This document shows positions 9,527-57,960 of a stretch of DNA of 59,878 nucleotides, one piece after another (position 1 is the stretch's first letter; each line of letters starts with the position of its first letter). The translations under genes and the position numbers were made by a program. The notes beneath the pieces are model-generated. The model had not been told where the DNA came from, did no database searches, and was given only the letters and a program-made list of their open reading frames with translations. The DNA lies in the NCBI GenBank assembly GCA_015487555.1, contig WFPK01000050.1, positions 1 through 59,878 on the forward strand. Direction: 5' to 3'. Source of the DNA: Phycisphaerales bacterium (GTDB lineage: Bacteria > Planctomycetota > Phycisphaerae > Phycisphaerales > UBA1924).

Positions 9527-10501
9527 TCAATAGACTTCGAGGAAGACTCGCTTGGTCTTTTTGATCTTTTTGGGGATCATTTTTCGTTCCCAGTGGTCGA
9601 TGTCGTCTGCGATCTCGGGGGCGAGATCGAGGTATTGGGCGAGCTGGTCAGGTGGCAAGAGCCTGGCGAGGGTCTGGAAGATGCCCAGCTCCATGCCGGC
9701 GATGCCACAGATGTAGATCAGGGTGCGGTCTGAAGCGAGCATGGGCCCGAGGGTGTCGAAGTCCTCAGCGAGCCGATCCTGGACATAGAGCTTCTTGGGT
9801 TGTGTGGGTGTGAGGTGGCGCGAGATCGCGGTGTGGTAGGTGAAGTTTTTATGCTCGTTGGCCCAGTTGGTCAGGTCCTCGTGGTAGAGCAGGTCCGATG
9901 CGTAGGGGGTGCCCATGAGCAAGGCGACGCGCGAGGGCATGGCGAGTTTGATCAGATCGAGGATCATGGATCGGAACGGGGCGATCCCGGTGCCGGTGGC
10001 GATGAAGATGTAGTCGTGGTCGGCGGGGCTTTGAGGGAGGAGGAATCGTTTGCCCACGGGTCCGGTGAGGGTGACTTCGTCGCCGACCTGAAGATCGCAG
10101 AGGTAGTTCGAGCAGAGCCCTTGGAAGAGTTTGTGCGTGTCCCAGTGTTCATCGACGACGCGTTTGACCGCGGTGGTGATGATGGTGCCGTCGCCGGTTT
10201 CGCCTCCGGTTGGGGCAGCGATGGAGTAGAGGCGGAGTTTGTGTGCTTTGCCGTTAGGTAGGGTGCCCGGTGGGATGACGCCGAAGGATTGCCCGGCGTT
10301 CCAGGTGTTTGCCAGAGGGGTTCCTGAAACATCAAACTCGATATGTCGCACAAATCCGGCGGCTTTTTTCGATGCGGTGCAGATGCGTGTGGCGTGGACT
10401 TTGGCGGTGATGGGGTTGGTTGGTTTGACGATGTGTTGATCGACCGCGGGGATGACTGGCGTGCCGGGGCGTTCGATTTCGCTTGGTGGTTTTGCAGTCA
10501 T
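9527..10501 (-). CDS. Ferredoxin-NADP reductase-like flavoprotein (plant-type FNR family)
   Basis: 324 residues. An FAD-binding barrel carries KLRLYSIAAPTG (FAD-binding R-x-Y-S) and the plant-type GLCSNYLCDLQVGDEVTLTG. The NADP domain has FIATGTGIAPFRSMI, the C-G motif YICGIAGMELGI, and the carboxy-terminal VFLEVY, where the last tyrosine stacks on FAD in plant-type FNR. The enzyme should move electrons between ferredoxin/flavodoxin and NADP(H). An N-terminal Lys/Pro-rich extension precedes the barrel. The start could be ATG 10501 or an in-frame ATG at 10555; neither has a strong ribosome site, and the longer form adds only basic residues. It lies downstream of the DMN-tail lipoprotein, though a functional link is not evident. 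BoxA-type reductases share this architecture. Confidence 0.85.
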   Translation of the reverse strand: MTAKPPSEIERPGTPVIPAVDQHIVKPTNPITAKVHATRICTASKKAAGFVRHIEFDVSGTPLANTWNAGQSFGVIPPGTLPNGKAHKLRLYSIAAPTGGETGDGTIITTAVKRVVDEHWDTHKLFQGLCSNYLCDLQVGDEVTLTGPVGKRFLLPQSPADHDYIFIATGTGIAPFRSMILDLIKLAMPSRVALLMGTPYASDLLYHEDLTNWANEHKNFTYHTAISRHLTPTQPKKLYVQDRLAEDFDTLGPMLASDRTLIYICGIAGMELGIFQTLARLLPPDQLAQYLDLAPEIADDIDHWERKMIPKKIKKTKRVFLEVY

Positions 10502-10574
10502 GGGAATCTTCGATGCTTTTCGGAGGAGAACCTTGCGCGGAAAGCGCAGTGGCATTGCAGGGCGGGGCGTTGGA

Positions 10575-12026
10575 TTACCCGTCGTCTTCTTCGTTGGGTT
10601 CGTCGCTCATGTCCATGTCGTGGTCCATGTCACTCATGTTATTCATGTCATTCATGTCATTCATGTCATTCATGTCATTCATGTCATTCATGTCATTCAT
10701 GTCATCGTATTCGGGTTCGGGTTCGAGCCCGCCGAGGAGATCGAGCCGGGCAGCGGTGGCTTCGAGTTTTTCGCCTTCGTCACCTCGCACGCGGGCGCTG
10801 CGCAGTGCCGAAGCGGCGCCTTGGAACGCGTCATTGGCAGCTTCTTTGGCCCGGGCTTGTTCATCGCGGGCCTCTTGGGCCTTGGCGGTCCAGTTGCCGG
10901 GGATGCCTGCCTCTTCGAGGGCGTGGTAGAGGATCGCTGCTTCGGCATATCCCGCAGCCTGCCGTGCGTAGCACTCGGCAAGGGTTTGCTGGGCGGAGGC
11001 TTTGGTCAGCGATGCGACCTGCTTGATGGTCTTGTTGGCGTCGCGGAGGGCGCTGATCGAGGCGCGGGTCAGTGAGATGGCTTTTTCGTTGGCGTCGTTG
11101 ACTTGTGTGTCTCTGAACTGGGCATAGTCGGCGACGGCTTTTTCGAGTCGCTCGGTGGCTGCCGATGCGGCGTCGTTGGCGAGCTGGGCGTCTGCTTTAC
11201 TCGATGCTTCACGCTCGGCGAGCTCGTTGCGGGCATCTTCGAGCAGGGCGATCTGGGAGGTTGCCTTTTCGACATTGAGGCTGATCTCGCGGGCGCCGGG
11301 GCGGAGCTGGCCGACGACGCCTTCGATGCGGATCGCTTCGAGCTCGTAGTTGTCAGCCCGGAGGGTGTGCTCGCGGACACGAACGACAATCTGGGCCGCC
11401 TCGGCAGCACTCACCCGGGGCATCTGGAGCTCAAGGGCACCCGATTGGTTGCGCTCGGCGACAGATTTGGTGCGAAGCTCGGCGATCTGGGCGTCGAGCT
11501 CGGCGATCCGGGCTTCGACCTGTTTACGCTGGGCCTGGTATTGCTTGATGTCATCCTTGCGGATGGAGATGAGCTTGTTGATCTCGGCGAGCTCGGCGGA
11601 TGGATCAAACTGCCCGGCACCTTGGGCGATGGCGGTCATGGTGAGCCATTCGTTGATCATCCCGCGGATGATGCGTGCTTTGTGCAATGCTGCGATTTCG
11701 GCCTGGGATGCCTTGGAGGATGCCAGTGATGCCTGCCCGAGTTTGGCCAAAGAGAGTGTGACGGCTGCAGCTTCGGCGTAGCCGTCCTCGCTGCCTGCAT
11801 ATTCAGAGACGAGTTGTTCGGTCTGGGTGTATGCCTTTTGTGAGAATGTCTCCGAAGCGGTTGAATCGCCCGCTGCGACAGAGCTGAACGAACGCGAAGC
11901 TTCCTTGACCGCTGCCTGGGCATCATCGGATCGGGAGCACCCGGCGATCCCCGCCAGCGCAATCAAGGTGCACGCACAAGCGATCTCGATGGTCCGGGTG
12001 CGTGATGTGGGGGATTTGGTGGTCAT
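10575..12026 (-). CDS. Predicted lipoprotein with long coiled coil and Asp-Met-Asn repeat tail
   Basis: 483 residues. After MTTKSPTSRTRTIEIACACT comes a lipobox-like LALAGIAGC-type segment (LIALAGIAGCSRS), predicting lipid attachment at the cysteine. The body is a long heptad-rich coiled coil, for example DDIKQYQAQRKQVEARIAEL and IALLEDARNELAEREASSKA, flanked by TPR-like helices. It ends in seven Asp-Met-Asn triplets, then MSDMDHDMDMSD and an acidic finish. AAGGA six bases upstream supports ATG 12026; an in-frame ATG at 12149 would hide the signal peptide. Function is unknown. A Met/Asp/His-rich tail is compatible with metal binding, but that is a guess. It lies between the heme-motif protein and the FNR-like gene on the same strand. 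Confidence 0.7.
   Translation of the reverse strand: MTTKSPTSRTRTIEIACACTLIALAGIAGCSRSDDAQAAVKEASRSFSSVAAGDSTASETFSQKAYTQTEQLVSEYAGSEDGYAEAAAVTLSLAKLGQASLASSKASQAEIAALHKARIIRGMINEWLTMTAIAQGAGQFDPSAELAEINKLISIRKDDIKQYQAQRKQVEARIAELDAQIAELRTKSVAERNQSGALELQMPRVSAAEAAQIVVRVREHTLRADNYELEAIRIEGVVGQLRPGAREISLNVEKATSQIALLEDARNELAEREASSKADAQLANDAASAATERLEKAVADYAQFRDTQVNDANEKAISLTRASISALRDANKTIKQVASLTKASAQQTLAECYARQAAGYAEAAILYHALEEAGIPGNWTAKAQEARDEQARAKEAANDAFQGAASALRSARVRGDEGEKLEATAARLDLLGGLEPEPEYDDMNDMNDMNDMNDMNDMNDMNNMSDMDHDMDMSDEPNEEDDG
10641..10703. repeat. Seven perfect copies of a 9-bp tandem repeat
   Basis: The unit attcatgtc (plus strand) is repeated seven times without a mismatch and encodes Asp-Met-Asn in the minus-strand lipoprotein. 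Copy-number changes keep the reading frame, so they would alter tail length rather than switch the gene off. Confidence 0.95.
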
Positions 12027-43610: not shown

Positions 43611-43644
43611 GCTGAGGAATACTGCTTTGAGCCAAGGATGCACC

Positions 43645-44403
43645 ATGCCTGATACGAACGGAACACCGACCGAGCCAGTCACCGAATCTTCAACCGACAC
43701 GCCTCCGATGCAGCGGGTGGCGGGTGTCACCCAACTCGATCAACAGCTCGCAGCCCTTCGGCGACGACTGATCCGCGAAGCATCGCAGGCGGTTGATTTG
43801 CTCAAGCAATCGCTCGAGGTGCTCTGGGCATCGGATCGTGAAGGAGCCAAGGAGGTTCGCCGAATCGAGAAGCAGATCGACCAAGAGGAGGTGCGGATCG
43901 AGCAGGAGTGTTTTCGGATTTTGGCATTGCAGCAGCCCTTTGGCGCGGATTTTCGGCTGATTACTTTTAGCCTCAAGGCGAACTCGGATATCGAACGGCT
44001 GGCCGACCATGCGAGCTCGATCGCCAAGATCAGCAAGAAGATCGAGAGCGAAACACCTGATTGGCCCGCGTCATTGCGTGAGATGGGGGAGCGGCTGCCT
44101 GTGATGTGTCAGGAGCTTTTGCGCGCGGTGATCAACGCTGATGCTCAGGGGGCCAAGGAAGTGGTCAAACGAGATAAGGTCATCGACCGGCTTGACAAAC
44201 AGACATTCAAAGATCTGAGTGCGAAGATTGAGCTCAACCCGACGAACGCATCGGAATATATGCTGATGTATCGCATCTCGCGCGAGCTTGAGCGCGTGGG
44301 TGATTTGCTTGGCAATATCGCCGAGGATGTGGTGTATCTGGTGACGGGTGATATTGTGCGTCATGCGCCCAAGCCGAAGAAGAAGGATCAGCGAGAAACA
44401 TAG
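43645..44403 (+). CDS. phoU: Phosphate signalling protein PhoU
   Basis: 252 residues, two repeats of a three-helix bundle. Each has the PhoU metal-binding signature: EVRRIEKQIDQEEVRIEQEC and later VVKRDKVIDRLDKQTFKDLS. The intervening ITFSLKANSDIERLADHASS and MYRISRELERVGDLLGNIAE correspond to the paired E/D-R-x-x-D helices. PhoU links the Pst phosphate transporter to the PhoR sensor and represses the Pho regulon. No pst or phoBR genes are in the window. The extra 30 residues at the N-terminus are Thr/Pro-rich. AAGGA six bases before ATG 43645 sets the start. Confidence 0.93.
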   Translation: MPDTNGTPTEPVTESSTDTPPMQRVAGVTQLDQQLAALRRRLIREASQAVDLLKQSLEVLWASDREGAKEVRRIEKQIDQEEVRIEQECFRILALQQPFGADFRLITFSLKANSDIERLADHASSIAKISKKIESETPDWPASLREMGERLPVMCQELLRAVINADAQGAKEVVKRDKVIDRLDKQTFKDLSAKIELNPTNASEYMLMYRISRELERVGDLLGNIAEDVVYLVTGDIVRHAPKPKKKDQRET

Positions 44404-44447
44404 TTTGGCGATTCGTTTGGCGATTGTCGTTTGGGCTATCATCTGCC

Positions 44448-46106
44448 ATGATGATCTTGATGTTTGCTGGGCCTGTGTTTTTGTTTGGTATTGTGTTGTT
44501 TATCCGTGCGATTCGTGGGCGGGTGGTTTCGGTGCATCCGCATTGCCGGGGGTGCAAGTTTGATTTGCATGGGTTGACGCTCTCGCGTGATTCGGTGTGT
44601 CCCGAGTGCGGGCGGGCGGTGATTCCGGGCACGCCTACGGTGATGGACGGTCGGCGTGTTTTTGGTCGTCGGCTTGCAGTGGTCGCGGTGTTGTTGATGT
44701 TGGTTGGCGGCGGCGGATTGGCGTGGCCGAGCGTTTCGAGGATGCCTGCGATTCAGAATATCGATTGGTATGCCAAGTTTCCCGAAGGGTTGTTGCTGCG
44801 GCTCGAAGAAGGCGGGGATAAGAAGGCGTTGCAGGAGCTGCACGATCGGCTGATCCCGGGGACGCTGAGCGACGAGGGGCTGCAGACTTTGATCGATCGT
44901 GCATTTGCGGCACAGGCCGATGAAGCGGTGGTTTGGGATGAGCGGTGGGGGGATGTTTTGTTGTTTTCGTTTTTGCTTGACCGTATGCCTCAGGAGAAAA
45001 TATTCGGTTATCTTGAAGGGGCGATTCTTTTTGATCTGAAGGTGCATGAAGAGGTTGGCTTTGAAACGGAATCGATAAAATATACATTGATCAGACTCGA
45101 ACCCAAGCGTGGAACCTGGTCCTATTCATTCCTCAACGAACTGCGGCAACTCCTCCCATCAAAGCAGTATTCAGGCTTGATAACAGGGTTTCATGACCGT
45201 ATCGAGGCATTTAGACCATATGAAAATATACAGGATCGCCGGGCAGGTGGTTTTCGTAGTGGAAGTGCATTGAGCATGGACGATTATGAAGGCTTTTGGG
45301 TGCCTTACCAACGGGGTGGGAGCAGGTCAGGCACCCGACTCGATCTCGATCTCGACCGAAGCGAGTTTCTTTTTACCTTCCCAGTTCAGATCACGATTTA
45401 CAAAGAGAAAGCCGTCTATCACGAGTGGTTGATTGAGAAAAAGGTACAGATTACACGCGCCGAAAACCCGCAGTATCTCAAGCCGTTCACGGATGAACGA
45501 GTCATCGCCCAAGTAGCCAAGGCACTTGAAATGAGCAAGGTCGATGTGCCTGTTGATGCAGAACAAGCCAAGACTGAGAAGGATATCACGAGCGGAGTGT
45601 CATCGATTTTGCACATCTCTTGCTCTGTCGATCAGAAACTTGGTTTGCTCGGCAAGCTGGTGCTGGACAACGGCGTCGAGCAGATTGATTTTGCAAGGCT
45701 ATCTATTCCTGAACTTCAGCAGACGCGCTACGCCTACATGACGCCCGACCCCTACCAGTTTGGGCGCAACTGGCTCGACTATTTCATCGATCATGAATCG
45801 TTCTGGGAAGTTGCACGCGAAAAAGGGACGATTGATGTGATCTATATGCCAGATTTGTCGGCGGGGCTTGATGATGCTCAGTTCGAACAGGTGATCAACC
45901 GCAAGATTATCTGGCGAGATGTTCCCATCGATCATCAGGAACTTTACCCGACGAATTATATCGAGAGGGACGGCACGAAAAGAGAGGGAGTGAGCCTCAG
46001 GTCTGCCTCTCAACCTCGGGTAGGCGAATCACTAACTTCCGTAGAATATGAGGCACGCCGCCAGCGTCTCGAACCGATTGCAGGCGAGCTCCTCGATGAC
46101 GACTAA
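44448..46106 (+). CDS. Zinc-ribbon two-helix membrane protein, paralogue 1
   Basis: 552 residues. TM1 (ILMFAGPVFLFGIVLFIRAI), then a zinc ribbon CRGCKFDLHGL with a 12-residue spacer to CPECGR. TM2 (LAVVAVLLMLVGGGGLAW) and an extracytoplasmic domain of about 470 residues follow. The positive flanks put the ribbon in the cytoplasm. The outer domain starts with a helical segment (DEAVVWDERWGDVL) shared with the two downstream genes and ends with a strand-rich part (EVAREKGTIDVIYMPD, IIWRDVPIDH) that also aligns with them. The function is unknown. ATG 44448 (or 44451) follows TATCAT (44437-44442) by five bases and has no Shine-Dalgarno sequence. From about 45040 the base composition is richer in A/T than the start. 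Confidence 0.75.
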   Translation: MMILMFAGPVFLFGIVLFIRAIRGRVVSVHPHCRGCKFDLHGLTLSRDSVCPECGRAVIPGTPTVMDGRRVFGRRLAVVAVLLMLVGGGGLAWPSVSRMPAIQNIDWYAKFPEGLLLRLEEGGDKKALQELHDRLIPGTLSDEGLQTLIDRAFAAQADEAVVWDERWGDVLLFSFLLDRMPQEKIFGYLEGAILFDLKVHEEVGFETESIKYTLIRLEPKRGTWSYSFLNELRQLLPSKQYSGLITGFHDRIEAFRPYENIQDRRAGGFRSGSALSMDDYEGFWVPYQRGGSRSGTRLDLDLDRSEFLFTFPVQITIYKEKAVYHEWLIEKKVQITRAENPQYLKPFTDERVIAQVAKALEMSKVDVPVDAEQAKTEKDITSGVSSILHISCSVDQKLGLLGKLVLDNGVEQIDFARLSIPELQQTRYAYMTPDPYQFGRNWLDYFIDHESFWEVAREKGTIDVIYMPDLSAGLDDAQFEQVINRKIIWRDVPIDHQELYPTNYIERDGTKREGVSLRSASQPRVGESLTSVEYEARRQRLEPIAGELLDDD

Positions 46107-46124
46107 TCCTGTATACTCTCTTCC

Positions 46125-47663
46125 ATGATCCCCGCATCCATGATATTGGTTTTTCTCGCTTCGATGCTCTTCGTCCTCGCCTGGCGTGGGCGGGTGGTGG
46201 CTCGTGGTCAGTTCTGCCGGAAGTGCCGATTTGATCTCGCGGGTTTAGCGTGGGAAGAGCCCGGGGCGCAATGTCCTGAGTGTGGGTATGTGGTTTGTCA
46301 GCCCTCGGCCCGCCGAGCGTTGCTCCGCAGGCGATCACGAGGGGGACTCGTCGCCGCCTTGATCTTGATGCTCAGCGGGATCGGAATGCTGGGGTTCTGG
46401 GCATCTGGAAATGCAAGCGTGATCCTCAAGCCCATGCCGGACTGGGCGGTGGTGGGGTTGACAGAGATGGGGATGGATGCAGCCCTTGATGAACTGGTCA
46501 CGCGGGTTTCAATGGTGCCCAATTCGATGTCGGATTCGCAGATGAGCAAGGCGATCGAAGCCGGGTTGGCGCACCAGGCGGATCTGGTCGCAGCCTTCGA
46601 TCCGCGATGGGGCGAGGTGCTCTATATCGCTTGCGTCGAAAGATATATGAGCGAGGAGCAACTCAAGCAATACATGCTCCTCGGCGTATCGAGCGAGGTG
46701 CTCGTTCGCGACCGGGTGCATCGGGGAGCGAAGAAAGTCGATGGGCTGATGAAGATTGCTCCCGCGAGAATCAACGCACTCACCGGGGGGTACACCGGAT
46801 ACTCCGTGTCGAGAAAATGGGTCGCTGATGGTGTTGTTGACCAACAATCCTTTGGTCCCTTGGCGTTGGTCAGTGTGCCCAAACCAGGAGGATGGTGGAC
46901 GAACTCGGCTTCGACGCCAATCGTCCCCGCCAGCGGCGAGCTCAATCGCAAGGTTGGCTCGAAACTCGTGGTTTATGCCGAGTACGATTTGATCCTCTCG
47001 GCAGCGTCTGATCAGTATCCCGCATCGCTCAATATTCCGGCTCAGGAACTCGAAAACGAGCTGGTGCTTGGGCGTTTTCGTGTTGAGCATGAGGTGGAGA
47101 TTATTGATCCCGGTGAGCCCATCGTGCCTATGGCTGATGATCCAGAGCTCGCCAGGCGTACCTGCGAGGCGATGGGAATCTCGGCGATTCGTCTGCTCAG
47201 GGTTCTTCCTGAGCCCGAGCCGGGGCTTCGGACAAGGGTGCTTTCGATGAGTACATACAGCAGGAACCTGCCGACGAATATCGCGCTTCGGGCGTATGCT
47301 CAGCTCGATGATGGGCAAGAGATTCGGATTGGGCAATGGATGACCAAGGGGATGGGGGGCGATTTTTTCTCGGGAATCTCATGGTCGGTGGACAATACCA
47401 ATGCCCAAAGCCACGCACAGACACAGGCGATTCTTGACAAGATGATCGAGCAAGGGCAGGTTGATGTGATTTTCAGGACGGACGCCACGCTTGCCGAGTC
47501 CACGCCTGAGATTCAAGAGGTGATTGATCTGACGATGATCTTTGAGGCTGTCCCGGTCGAGATCACGGCGAGTGTGTCTGGGTTTTCATCCTCGTCAGCC
47601 GATGATTGGATCAAAGGCAAGATAATCGAGCAGGATGAGGGCGAAGATTCAGAGCAACCCTGA
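46125..47663 (+). CDS. Zinc-ribbon two-helix membrane protein, paralogue 2
   Basis: 512 residues with the same plan as the gene before it. TM1 (SMILVFLASMLFVLAW), GRVVARGQFCRKCRFDLAGL, CPECGY, an Arg-rich stop, TM2 (LVAALILMLSGIGMLGFW), then the outer domain. Shared landmarks are MDAALDELVTRVS, AHQADLVAAFDPRWGEVLYI and, near the end, MIEQGQVDVIFRTD and IFEAVPVEI. The tail is acidic. A TATACT box (46112-46117) lies seven bases before ATG 46125 and there is no ribosome site, so each paralogue may have its own leaderless transcript even though only 18 bases separate the genes. Role unknown. Confidence 0.75.
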   Translation: MIPASMILVFLASMLFVLAWRGRVVARGQFCRKCRFDLAGLAWEEPGAQCPECGYVVCQPSARRALLRRRSRGGLVAALILMLSGIGMLGFWASGNASVILKPMPDWAVVGLTEMGMDAALDELVTRVSMVPNSMSDSQMSKAIEAGLAHQADLVAAFDPRWGEVLYIACVERYMSEEQLKQYMLLGVSSEVLVRDRVHRGAKKVDGLMKIAPARINALTGGYTGYSVSRKWVADGVVDQQSFGPLALVSVPKPGGWWTNSASTPIVPASGELNRKVGSKLVVYAEYDLILSAASDQYPASLNIPAQELENELVLGRFRVEHEVEIIDPGEPIVPMADDPELARRTCEAMGISAIRLLRVLPEPEPGLRTRVLSMSTYSRNLPTNIALRAYAQLDDGQEIRIGQWMTKGMGGDFFSGISWSVDNTNAQSHAQTQAILDKMIEQGQVDVIFRTDATLAESTPEIQEVIDLTMIFEAVPVEITASVSGFSSSSADDWIKGKIIEQDEGEDSEQP

Positions 47664-47688
47664 GCGGTGAGTTTGGTATGCTTCTTGT

Positions 47689-49290
47689 ATGATTATCATC
47701 GGCATCGTCCTGCTGGGTGTTGGGTTGCTCGTTTCCATTCTTGCTTTTCGTGGGCGGGTGGTTGCGAGGGGGCGGTTCTGTAAGAAGTGCAGGTTTGATC
47801 TGGCCGGGTTGGATTTGGATGCTGCCGATGCCAGATGCCCGGAGTGTGGGCGGGGGATTCATCAGGAATCGAGCCGACGGACTTTGCTCCGCAGGCGATC
47901 ACGGCTCGGGCTGATCGCGGCCACGCTTCTGCTGGTCTCGGGTTTCGGGGCGATAGGAGTCGGAGCTGCTGGCAAGACCAACGCCATCATCACCGCCATG
48001 CCCGATTCGGTTGTGCTGTGGCTGACGGATTTGGGGGTTGACGAAGCGCTTGATGAACTGGTGGTGCGGGTATCGAAGGTGCCGGGCACAATGTCGGCCA
48101 AGAGCTGGGACGATGCGATCGAGCAGGGGCTGGCGTTTCAGGCGGATAAAACGCTGGTGTGGGATGTGCGGTGGGGGGAGGTGTTGGTTATTGCGATGCT
48201 TGAAAAACGCCTTGTAGGCGATGCCTTATACAAGTTTGTAGAGTCCTCGCTCATTGCTGAGTTTGAAACGAGGCAAATTATTCAAGATGAGGATCAGATG
48301 GTTTACTACCGTCTTATTGTGAAGGGCAATCATCGAGGGGTATCTGTAGCGACCCCATTCTTGAGGACACCCAAGTCAAGAGTTCTTGACAAATGGAGGA
48401 AATCTCATGGGACTGAATCACCGTTTCAGATCAACATTGAGTTTGAGCGTGACTGGATTGATAAGCCATTCCCTATTCAAATCGGCGGTGGACAGGTGCG
48501 GCTTAGAGAATGGGCTCCTGTCGTGGGAAACTATGTTGATTTTCGGAGATCGATTACAATCCCAACGGATTCTCCTGATCAGATCACACTGCATTCCCGG
48601 GCAGATTTTACATTATTAGTAGATGGCCAAGAGGTTCATGCCTGGTCTTTGCAACTCGAGAAAACAATCCAAAGATCAGCCGAAGTGATTGAGTATGCGA
48701 AACCGGTATCGGATGAGAATGTCGTCAATCAATTGATTCAAGGGTTGTCAGTTGGCTACATTGAGTATCCGTCGAAGCGATCGCTGGGCCGTGAACACTT
48801 CGGGACGAGGGATTGCTACACTGCCAATGTCATTCGTATCCATCATCGTTCAGAAGGATGGGTTGATTTAGATATTGCGATACTCTTTGACGCATCGGTT
48901 GCAATCGATGGCGATGAGATCAAGCTTGCTCGTGTTCATGTGGGGGAACTGAGAGGCGGGCTTGAACTTCGAATCCGTAAGCGATTGGAGCGCAATGTGC
49001 TTGATGTATTTGATCGTCAAAGCGAGTTTTGGGAGAAGGCGCACAAGCGTGGTTTTGTTGATCTCATTCTTAGGCCCAGCCCCGAGTACGCCCAGTTTGA
49101 TCCCAGATTTAAGTTCTATCTAGATGCGGAGATTATTTTTCGCGATGTACCCTTAATGATTCGTGTGCCCAAGGACACTGGAGATATCTGGGAAGAGACA
49201 GGCGAGCCCGAGTGGCGATGGGTTCAAGAGAGACAGAAGAGTTATCCATCTACCTTTGCTGAGATTCTTGTCGAGGATGATGAAGAATAG
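47689..49290 (+). CDS. Zinc-ribbon two-helix membrane protein, paralogue 3
   Basis: 533 residues. TM1 (IIIGIVLLGVGLLVSILAF), GRVVARGRFCKKCRFDLAGL and CPECGR ribbon, TM2 (LIAATLLLVSGFGAIGVG), outer domain with DEALDELVVRVSKVPGTMS and AFQADKTLVWDVRWGEVLVI. The C-terminal half aligns with paralogue 1 (FWEKAHKRGFVDLILRPS, IIFRDVPLMI). The N-terminal 170 codons are GC-rich and closest to paralogue 2, while the remainder (from about 48190) is clearly more A/T-rich, hinting at a separate history or relaxed constraint. TATGCT (47677-47682) ends six bases before the ATG. A bidirectional terminator follows 48 bases after the stop. Confidence 0.75.
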   Translation: MIIIGIVLLGVGLLVSILAFRGRVVARGRFCKKCRFDLAGLDLDAADARCPECGRGIHQESSRRTLLRRRSRLGLIAATLLLVSGFGAIGVGAAGKTNAIITAMPDSVVLWLTDLGVDEALDELVVRVSKVPGTMSAKSWDDAIEQGLAFQADKTLVWDVRWGEVLVIAMLEKRLVGDALYKFVESSLIAEFETRQIIQDEDQMVYYRLIVKGNHRGVSVATPFLRTPKSRVLDKWRKSHGTESPFQINIEFERDWIDKPFPIQIGGGQVRLREWAPVVGNYVDFRRSITIPTDSPDQITLHSRADFTLLVDGQEVHAWSLQLEKTIQRSAEVIEYAKPVSDENVVNQLIQGLSVGYIEYPSKRSLGREHFGTRDCYTANVIRIHHRSEGWVDLDIAILFDASVAIDGDEIKLARVHVGELRGGLELRIRKRLERNVLDVFDRQSEFWEKAHKRGFVDLILRPSPEYAQFDPRFKFYLDAEIIFRDVPLMIRVPKDTGDIWEETGEPEWRWVQERQKSYPSTFAEILVEDDEE

Positions 49291-49578: not shown

Positions 49579-51066
<1,488 letters not shown>

Positions 51067-56814: not shown

Positions 56815-57174
56815 GATATTTCTCCGTAGCTTGTTGTCGATCTTCCTGTGGATCGACGGGGTCTTGTGTTCCCGATCGAGGTGGATCGGGGTTGGTTTTG
56901 TGTTTGTCGAGCTCGATGTTCGACAGGGTATGAGTGGGGAAGTGGGGCAGCGAATTTCATGTTGGGGTCCAAAAAATATGAAGAAAAGCATCTCCACAGG
57001 GCTTCGATGGGGTTCTCGGACAGGCCCAATCGTGTTTTTTGCACCCATAGGGCTTGTTTTCGGGTATCCTCAAGAGAGCGGAAAATGAAAACCTACTCGG
57101 CAGTTTCCAAAGAATGCCGATCCACCGGATGTCGATCTGGTGTCGGGTCTCACGCGTGAGAGGAAAGATTGTCC
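56815..57174. other. Divergent 360-base promoter region, no gene seen
   Basis: Separates the coiled-coil gene (minus) from the sigma factor gene (plus). Both flanking starts have ribosome sites, so both transcripts are led. I found no convincing -35/-10 pair or RNA fold; a promoter served by the neighbouring sigma factor itself would not be recognisable by sight. Confidence 0.4.
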
Positions 57175-57960
57175 ATGCTGACCAATATGACGACGAGTTT
57201 CATCGCCCGATTGCGTGCCAATGACGAAGCGGCATGGTTTGAGTTGTGGGAGACCTTTGGGCCTGTGATCCGGATTCAGCTCTCGCGTTGGGGGCGTGGG
57301 CGCATCGGGGTCGAGACGGTGCGGGATTTGTCGCAAGAGACCCTCGCAGCGCTGTCCAACTCTATAGATCGGTATGACCCCGCACGCGGGGCGCGGTTCT
57401 CGACCTGGTTATTGGCGATCGCCAAGCATGTGCTCGGCGACGAGATCGACCGCAGAATGGCCCTCAAACGAGGCGGCGGCAAGGCCAATGCCCAGTTCGA
57501 TGAGACCTGGATGAAAGCCGATGCAACCCAAGGCGTGGATGAGATTTACGAGGCGTCGATCTTCTGCGCCAAGGTCGAAGCGGCGATCAAGATGGTCGAG
57601 CGGGAGACCGATTTTACGGATTTCTCGATTTATCGGATGCGGGTGCTCGATGGGCAGTCGGGCAAGGATGTGGCCTTGGCGATCGGGGTGTCGGAGCCAA
57701 CGATCAGCCGAAAGCTGGCCAAGGTCCGATCGGTGCTTCGGGTTCGTCTGGGCGAGGTGATTGCGACTTATTCGTTCACCAAGGAGGAGCTCGCCGAGGC
57801 CGAGCGAAATGGGTTGTCGCTGAATCCCAACAGTGATGGCAGCGGGGAGGTCGGCCCTGCGGATAAAGCCGCCGATGTCATGTTTGATGACGCGATCGCG
57901 GATATCTATCACCGGCAGATGCAGCTGCGAGCCCAGGACGAGCAGGCCTTGATGGGCTGA
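57175..57960 (+). CDS. ECF-type RNA polymerase sigma factor
   Basis: 261 residues. Region 2 is visible from FIARLRANDEAAWFELWETF through VRDLSQETLAALSNSIDRYD to GARFSTWLLAIAKHVLGDEI. A charged linker follows, then region 4 with a helix-turn-helix (GKDVALAIGVSEPTISRKLA). About 75 residues after region 4 (FTKEELAEAERNGLSLNPNS onward) are an extension not found in minimal ECF factors and could be a regulatory or kinase-contact segment. GAGGAAAG lies seven bases before ATG 57175. The next gene, 38 bases on, encodes a membrane-anchored Ser/Thr kinase. Planctomycetes are known for ECF factors linked to such kinases, so phosphorylation control is likely. Confidence 0.85.
   Translation: MLTNMTTSFIARLRANDEAAWFELWETFGPVIRIQLSRWGRGRIGVETVRDLSQETLAALSNSIDRYDPARGARFSTWLLAIAKHVLGDEIDRRMALKRGGGKANAQFDETWMKADATQGVDEIYEASIFCAKVEAAIKMVERETDFTDFSIYRMRVLDGQSGKDVALAIGVSEPTISRKLAKVRSVLRVRLGEVIATYSFTKEELAEAERNGLSLNPNSDGSGEVGPADKAADVMFDDAIADIYHRQMQLRAQDEQALMG

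Follow-up and report, generated by a model that had tools for sequence, protein, structure and literature searches.

Three tandem paralogues with a conserved front

The window analysed here is a stretch of 59,878 bases (contig WFPK01000050.1, assembly GCA_015487555.1) from a Phycisphaerales bacterium. Three open reading frames (ORFs) lie head to tail on its forward strand at 44448-49290 (Table 1), and we refer to them as copies 1, 2 and 3 of an array. They encode proteins of 552, 512 and 533 residues; for copy 1, the length corresponds to the ATG at 44448, which was judged the most likely start. All three share the same plan: a hydrophobic helix, a cysteine motif of the form C-x2-C...CPECG (the ribbon), a second hydrophobic helix, and then about 420-460 residues, termed the outer domain. 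Copy 3, used as query, matched copy 2 (E 2.7e-54) and copy 1 (E 1.8e-41). An RWGEVL/RWGDVL segment and a C-terminal G-x-[VI]-D-[VL]-I ... VP segment could be aligned across the three copies in the array protein alignment. Thus ORFs, E-values, hydropathy and alignment confirm the original prediction for this DNA, which had described three tandem paralogous ribbon membrane proteins that align in these two segments.

Table 1. Features of the array and its flanks (window coordinates).
Feature	Position	Strand	Description	Basis
Copy 1	44448..46106	+	Subfamily I front and subfamily I outer domain	ORF, trees
Copy 2	46125..47663	+	Subfamily II front and outer domain	ORF, trees, model (pLDDT 87.5)
Copy 3	47689..49290	+	Hybrid of a subfamily II front and a subfamily I outer domain	Trees, AU tests, identity; model (pLDDT 80.7)
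Approximate junction of two histories in copy 3	48136..48256	+	Codons 150-190	Identity to copy 2 falls; N/C tree split placed here
C4 ribbon of copy 1	44544..44612	+	CRGCKFDLHGLTLSRDSVCPECG	ORF translation, alignment
C4 ribbon of copy 2	46215..46286	+		ORF translation, alignment
C4 ribbon of copy 3	47779..47850	+		ORF translation, alignment
-10-like hexamer, copy 1	44437..44442	+	TATCAT	5 bases ahead of ATG 44448
-10-like hexamer, copy 2	46112..46117	+	TATACT	7 bases ahead of ATG 46125
-10-like hexamer, copy 3	47677..47682	+	TATGCT	6 bases ahead of ATG 47689
phoU-like gene	43627..44403	+	Fixed upstream neighbour	Pfam PhoU, E 6.9e-33
Lone 16S rRNA gene	49585..51066	-	Convergent fixed downstream neighbour	Rfam RF00177

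The N-terminal part is indeed much more conserved than the rest, as had been proposed. Between copies 2 and 3, 60-codon windows up to codon 180 had a nucleotide identity of 0.57-0.64, those starting at codon 181 or later one of 0.31-0.46. A richness in A/T of the C-terminal part had been pointed out for copies 1 and 3. The GC content does drop there, from 0.58 in the first part to 0.50 in the later part of copy 1 and from 0.60 to 0.47 in copy 3, but it also drops in copy 2 (0.61 to 0.56), and the later part was lower in GC than the first in 32 of 34 array genes. The drop is therefore shared by the family at large and does not set copies 1 and 3 apart.

Copy 3 is a hybrid

Trees of the front and of the rest of the proteins (38 rows) were in conflict. 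In the tree of the rest, copy 3 and its orthologue in genome G015 joined L047_7745 in subfamily I (support 100/99), whereas in the front tree the same two sequences joined the subfamily II copies (99/93). Approximately unbiased (AU) tests on the front data rejected two placements of copy 3, one within subfamily I (p 0.0018) and one next to L047_7745 alone (p 2e-48). On the rest data, they rejected its placement within subfamily II (p 0.007) as well as beside the sequences that neighbour it in the front tree (p 9e-68); these p-values are weakened because the groups were named after the trees had been seen. Copy 3 is thus a hybrid that carries the front of subfamily II and the outer domain of subfamily I, a feature missed by the original prediction. 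In another pair, G001_9816 and G006_739, base identity was 0.84 before codon 170 and 0.40 after it.

Fronts were also compared within and between genomes, using 40 genes of the genus. Over codons 1-60, nucleotide identity was 0.580 within genomes and 0.523 between them, and the proportion of synonymous differences (pS) was 0.599 within versus 0.706 between; in both cases 0 of 2000 label shuffles were as extreme. Over codons 101-170 there was no excess of nucleotide identity (0.493 versus 0.491). In a second set, comprising 19 genes from four genomes of other genera, pS over codons 1-60 was 0.580 versus 0.653 (0/2000 shuffles), and 2/2000 shuffles were as extreme for nucleotides. This main within-genome signal reads as gene conversion of the 5' end.

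Gain and loss of copies

At least one copy was present at the phoU site in 16 of 21 genomes of the genus. Copy counts are minimal, as several contigs end inside the array and two copies (G005, G012) are cut. The window has three copies, G015 five open copies and a broken one, G014 five, G010 and G001 four each, G018 three, and the others one or two. Three genomes lacked an intact copy: G003, with no significant trace, and G011 and G016, each with a remnant (E 3.7e-9 and E 1e-5, respectively) corresponding to 5' parts. G016 keeps a near-identical promoter stretch, and it has no intact copy though its PhoU shares 90% identity with the PhoU of the window. The remaining two genomes were counted neither way (in G004 the contig ends; in G009 there was no PhoU match). 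The broken extra copy of G015 (L044:4708-6355) is split into two ORFs, and its last ribbon cysteine is gone (CPERG). Arrays of the same architecture were found elsewhere in the order, for example with eight ribbon-bearing ORFs in L053 and seven in L052; Mfd, PhoU and ComF had no match in the stretches examined there.

The ratio of nonsynonymous to synonymous change (dN/dS) was 0.17-0.26 in the five closest pairs, indicating purifying selection. These values rule out positive selection as the average explanation; most paralogue comparisons were useless for such a test because synonymous sites were saturated. Thus the suggestion that this is a fast-changing family holds for gene content, with intact copies ranging from 0 to 5 plus a broken one, but not in the sense of positive selection: change proceeds via gene loss and recombination. 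The family evolves by birth and death together with exchange of 5' ends.

The genomes devoid of intact copies, the two remnants and the broken copy of G015 would also be expected if the array were a site of frequent duplication next to the 16S rRNA gene, without function and in decay. The low dN/dS values, the ribbon cysteines invariant in 34/34 aligned copies and the conserved hexamers described below all speak against decay, and we consider this explanation very improbable.

Ribbon and membrane topology

In the alignment of 34 array proteins, the invariant columns were the four ribbon cysteines with CPxCG, G22, L38 and R127 (copy 2 numbering). In copies 2 and 3, hydropathy placed the membrane helices at about residues 1-25 and 71-95. 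Over the 34 members, the loop between the helices (22-71) contained a mean of 10.1 lysines plus arginines, versus 1.0 in the 15 positions after the second transmembrane (TM) helix. According to the positive-inside rule, the ribbon loop would therefore be cytoplasmic and the large C-terminal part would lie outside, which supports the topology originally put forward. The ribbon consists of two CxxC knuckles of the CPxCG type and, in both structural models described below, is flanked by strands 23-31 and 63-69. It may bind zinc; some C(P)XCG proteins are described as metal-free in a study of such proteins (PMC11241148).

The array proteins form a real family that has no name in family databases. 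No Pfam or NCBIfam model matched copies 1-3 at its curated cut-off, and the PADLOC anti-phage defence models gave 0 families at E 0.1 for 3/3 proteins. At E 0.1, 20 Pfam families in all were matched by any of the 34 members, the lowest E-value being 0.0015. The commonest weak match was DZR (19/34 members, best E 0.0021), below the curated cut-off in copies 1-3. Dodecin was considered as a label for copy 3, but its match (E 0.0086) fell short of the cut-off and was taken as chance. A sequence search of the PDB returned only zinc fingers and weak, unconvincing matches. With copy 2 as the only query, no relative was found among plasmid and phage sequences at E 0.001. A literature search found no publication on the family.

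Predicted structure of the outer domain

AlphaFold2 models were obtained for copy 2 (mean predicted local distance difference test score, pLDDT, 87.5; predicted template modelling score, pTM, 0.73) and copy 3 (80.7 and 0.65). Both models agree on TM1 (2-21), strand 23-31, the ribbon, strand 63-69, TM2 (72-94) and helices at 97-187, followed by two beta-rich domains at about 188-330 and 350-480. The outer part is thus predicted to form a helical neck and two immunoglobulin (Ig)-like beta-sandwiches.

When the first beta domain was compared with the PDB (Foldseek, VIA-align), it resembled the Ig-like sandwiches of protein 4.2, factor XIII, complement C3, RbmA and PapD-type chaperones. For residues 185-333 of copy 3, the best match was protein 4.2 (Z 8.7, root mean square deviation, rmsd, 2.9, 97 residues aligned); the biofilm scaffold RbmA gave Z 8.3, rmsd 2.9-3.1 over 99 residues and a Foldseek E-value of 1.2e-6. 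Residues 187-328 of copy 2 reached at best Z 7.0 (rmsd 3.3, 105 aligned). No enzyme active domain was found among the best rows of the whole-model structure look-ups; transglutaminase and peptidase entries presumably match through their beta-sandwich parts, given the domain layout of these proteins. Assignment of the outer domain to an enzyme family would have contradicted the original prediction, and neither the profile scans nor the structure look-ups name one.

The presence of PapD-type chaperones and scaffolds among the structural neighbours suggests envelope structural or assembly proteins, in which the sandwiches would serve as scaffolds or chaperone-like holders of periplasmic proteins and the ribbon would merely be a stabilised loop between the membrane helices. 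Copies may be redundant in such a role, since the array can be lost. However, no chaperone-usher, pilus or secretion gene was found among the neighbours scanned. We regard this explanation as possible but somewhat unlikely.

A promoter-like hexamer ahead of the ATG

In copies 1-3, a TA-N3-T motif resembling a -10 element lies 11-13 bases ahead of the ATG. This hexamer, a new observation of the present analysis, was found in 27/42 array genes, always at -11 to -14, whereas base shuffles of the interval used (-16 to -10) gave a mean of 4.3 and a maximum of 11. Once the sequences were aligned on the hexamer, a T five bases upstream appeared in 23/27 and a G directly before it in 19/27, neither having been used in the selection. 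Before other long ORFs, the hexamer occurred in 2/26 cases in the window and 3/45 in other loci, under a test that accepted any ATG within the first 40 codons. A loose form of the motif occurred four times in the entire window, three of these being the starts of copies 1-3. A scan for consensus sigma-70 promoters found no more sites than in shuffles (4 versus 4.0).

Genome-wide, GTATRCT-N5-7-ATG had 29 occurrences and its reversed control 6. The element also precedes unrelated genes, and it stands before two more genes for ribbon proteins, on contigs C41 and C75. It therefore looks like a leaderless-type promoter element of general use, as opposed to a switch specific to the family, and a dedicated regulon was discarded. 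For most array genes, its position suggests leaderless transcripts and one promoter per copy.

Neighbourhood of the array

Upstream of the array lie genes for an HHH protein, Mfd and PhoU (Pfam). PhoU was detected in 20/21 genomes of the genus, and in each of the 15 other array loci examined there it lay upstream of the array. The gap between PhoU and the array reaches 1.7-2 kb in L044 and L060, and in L044 it contains the broken copy. In each of nine further loci that were scanned (six carrying an array, three lacking an intact copy), the 16S rRNA gene occupied the same position; no 23S rRNA match was found in the searched stretch around it. Beyond the 16S rRNA gene lie a protein that we take to be ComF-like from its motif (no Pfam match), an ATP:guanido phosphotransferase-domain protein and a UVR-motif protein, the last two presumably McsB-like and McsA-like. 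In G018, the 16S rRNA gene (L047:9609-11249) spans about 1641 bases, compared with about 1482 in other complete ones, and possibly contains an inserted stretch. Separately, an ORF with a CHSC-type short repeat at 10343-11026 of the window is probably the antisense of a repetitive stretch.

The ribbon on other membrane proteins

A profile of the ribbon cassette matched 28 places in the organism's own genome at E 0.01. Fifteen further regions were read; 14 contained a ribbon ORF, in every case with at least one hydrophobic segment, and the remaining region (L108) had no such ORF. At least 14 other ribbon membrane proteins of 132-422 residues are thus encoded in this genome (L100-L107, L109-L114), with the ribbon N- or C-terminal. 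Their ribbon is of the type C-x2-C-x-[YF]-[DNS]-L-x-G-L ... CPECG, and the carriers are otherwise unrelated. Across the phylum, the profile matched 17/20 genomes of the same order and 2/175 others at E 1e-5; this survey scored only 26 candidates per genome, used a profile derived from the same order and took the 20 genomes from a kinship-sorted table. Attachment of this ribbon to membrane proteins is therefore typical of the lineage and seems to be concentrated in this order. Two more tandem ribbon proteins, of 453 and 464 residues, were observed at L009:1962-4711 (contig C57 of this same genome, G000); their outer part is shorter, they contain additional TM segments, and one carries the array-type promoter element.

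The topology, the ribbon and the many paralogues with differing outer domains would suit transmembrane sensors, whose outer sandwiches would bind an envelope signal while the cytoplasmic ribbon relays it to a regulator, as the original prediction had suggested. Signalling was left unsupported by our data: no regulator gene adjoins the array among the window genes scanned around it, and the ribbon, being carried by many unrelated membrane proteins, is not special to a sensor. Zinc-binding anti-sigma factors (ZAS) are characterised by the motif Hx3Cx2C. Membership in this group was rejected, as the C4 motif of the array proteins has no conserved histidine and the nearest sigma-factor gene found (57169-57960) is 7.9 kb away, past the 16S rRNA gene and several others. 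We consider a sensor role unlikely.

The wide distribution of the ribbon raises another idea, namely that it acts as a cytoplasmic address tag in Phycisphaerales, through which one shared partner would recognise dozens of unrelated membrane proteins. Selection for fit to this partner, together with gene conversion, would then keep the array fronts alike while the outer domains diverge. This proposal is speculative, and we hold it to be distinctly doubtful.

Discussion

Our preferred reading, which we put forward tentatively, is that the array belongs to a multigene family of Phycisphaerales, encoding periplasmic proteins for binding or adhesion that are anchored in the inner membrane. Fronts are shuffled in this family, genes are lost and gained, and copies mostly seem to have their own leaderless promoters. 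Each protein would cross the membrane twice, with both termini outside and the short C4-ribbon loop in the cytoplasm; the exported helical neck and two Ig-like sandwiches would bind a putative ligand. The array at phoU would change by gene birth and loss, and recombination would copy the front (the start and the initial 60 codons, in some cases as far as about codon 180) between copies, creating new pairings of a standard anchor with different outer domains. Most copies would have their own promoter just ahead of the ATG, giving leaderless mRNAs. A copied front end could then arrive ready for expression.

Several observations weigh against this interpretation. For amino acids, the excess in the second gene set fell in codons 101-170 (0/2000) and not in codons 1-60 (188/2000). 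In the genus set, a smaller effect was also seen from codon 331 to the end (pS 0.693 within versus 0.740 between genomes, 0/2000), and the within-genome drop of pS in later codons may partly reflect shared codon usage. Between copy 3 and its G015 orthologue, pS was 0.14-0.38 in eight windows of codons 91-360, all under the minimum (0.43) of 36 Mfd windows from the same genomes, and reached up to 0.88 elsewhere. This patchiness suggests recombination between lineages as well, or another cause; synonymous constraint as a general cause of the low-pS middle was rejected, the pair G014_3/G018_2 having the opposite pattern. The hexamer was missing from 15/42 array genes in the interval used. The structural look-ups bear on the first sandwich, the second one and the helical neck being barely probed, and as Z values of 6-9 are middling and Ig-like folds common, the models may name a fold arrangement and not a function. 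Finally, dispensability and family size fit other roles equally well.

Several known systems share part of this design. TcaA/YvbJ type proteins of Firmicutes have an N-terminal C4 ribbon, a TM segment and outer domains. The array proteins resemble them in their cytoplasmic C4 ribbon next to a TM helix and their exported multi-domain part, but they have two TM helices instead of one, and their outer part is predicted to consist of Ig-like sandwiches. LetA (YebS) and PqiA are membrane proteins with ribbons beside TM segments; the ribbon is likewise joined to membrane helices, and YebS was a weak match of the cassette profile (E 0.012), but in the array proteins a large outer domain follows. Neither TcaA nor PqiA was among the Pfam families matched by any of the 34 members at E 0.1. 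Staphylococcal lpl lipoproteins form a tandem family with a constant front and a variable rear. Families of this type share tandem copies, birth and death and a conserved N-terminus with the array, whose anchor differs in comprising two TM helices and a ribbon, and whose copies are mostly preceded by a leaderless-type element.

The predicted beta-sandwich arrangement of residues 185-333 is like that of RbmA and of other bacterial fibronectin type III (FnIII)/Ig-like adhesins and scaffolds, at 9-12% identity; RbmA is secreted into the matrix and is not known to have a membrane anchor or a ribbon. Among haloarchaeal C(P)XCG proteins, the DUF1610 protein 6ydh matched the cassette profile at E 0.0014, and the HVO_2753 model matched copy 3 at E 0.064. 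The haloarchaeal proteins, reported to be under 70 residues (PMC11241148), are without a large outer part.

Altogether, the evolutionary mode resembles that of known tandem surface-protein families; what is unusual is that it comes together with a cytoplasmic C4 ribbon and, for most copies, a promoter element. Within a single order of Planctomycetota this family is common, and it joins an exchangeable front, made up of promoter element, membrane anchor and cysteine ribbon, to outer domains that diverge. Provided that the leaderless promoters do exist, recombination between copies might yield new envelope proteins with immediate expression. Thus, the array offers a test case for how planctomycetes diversify their envelope proteins.

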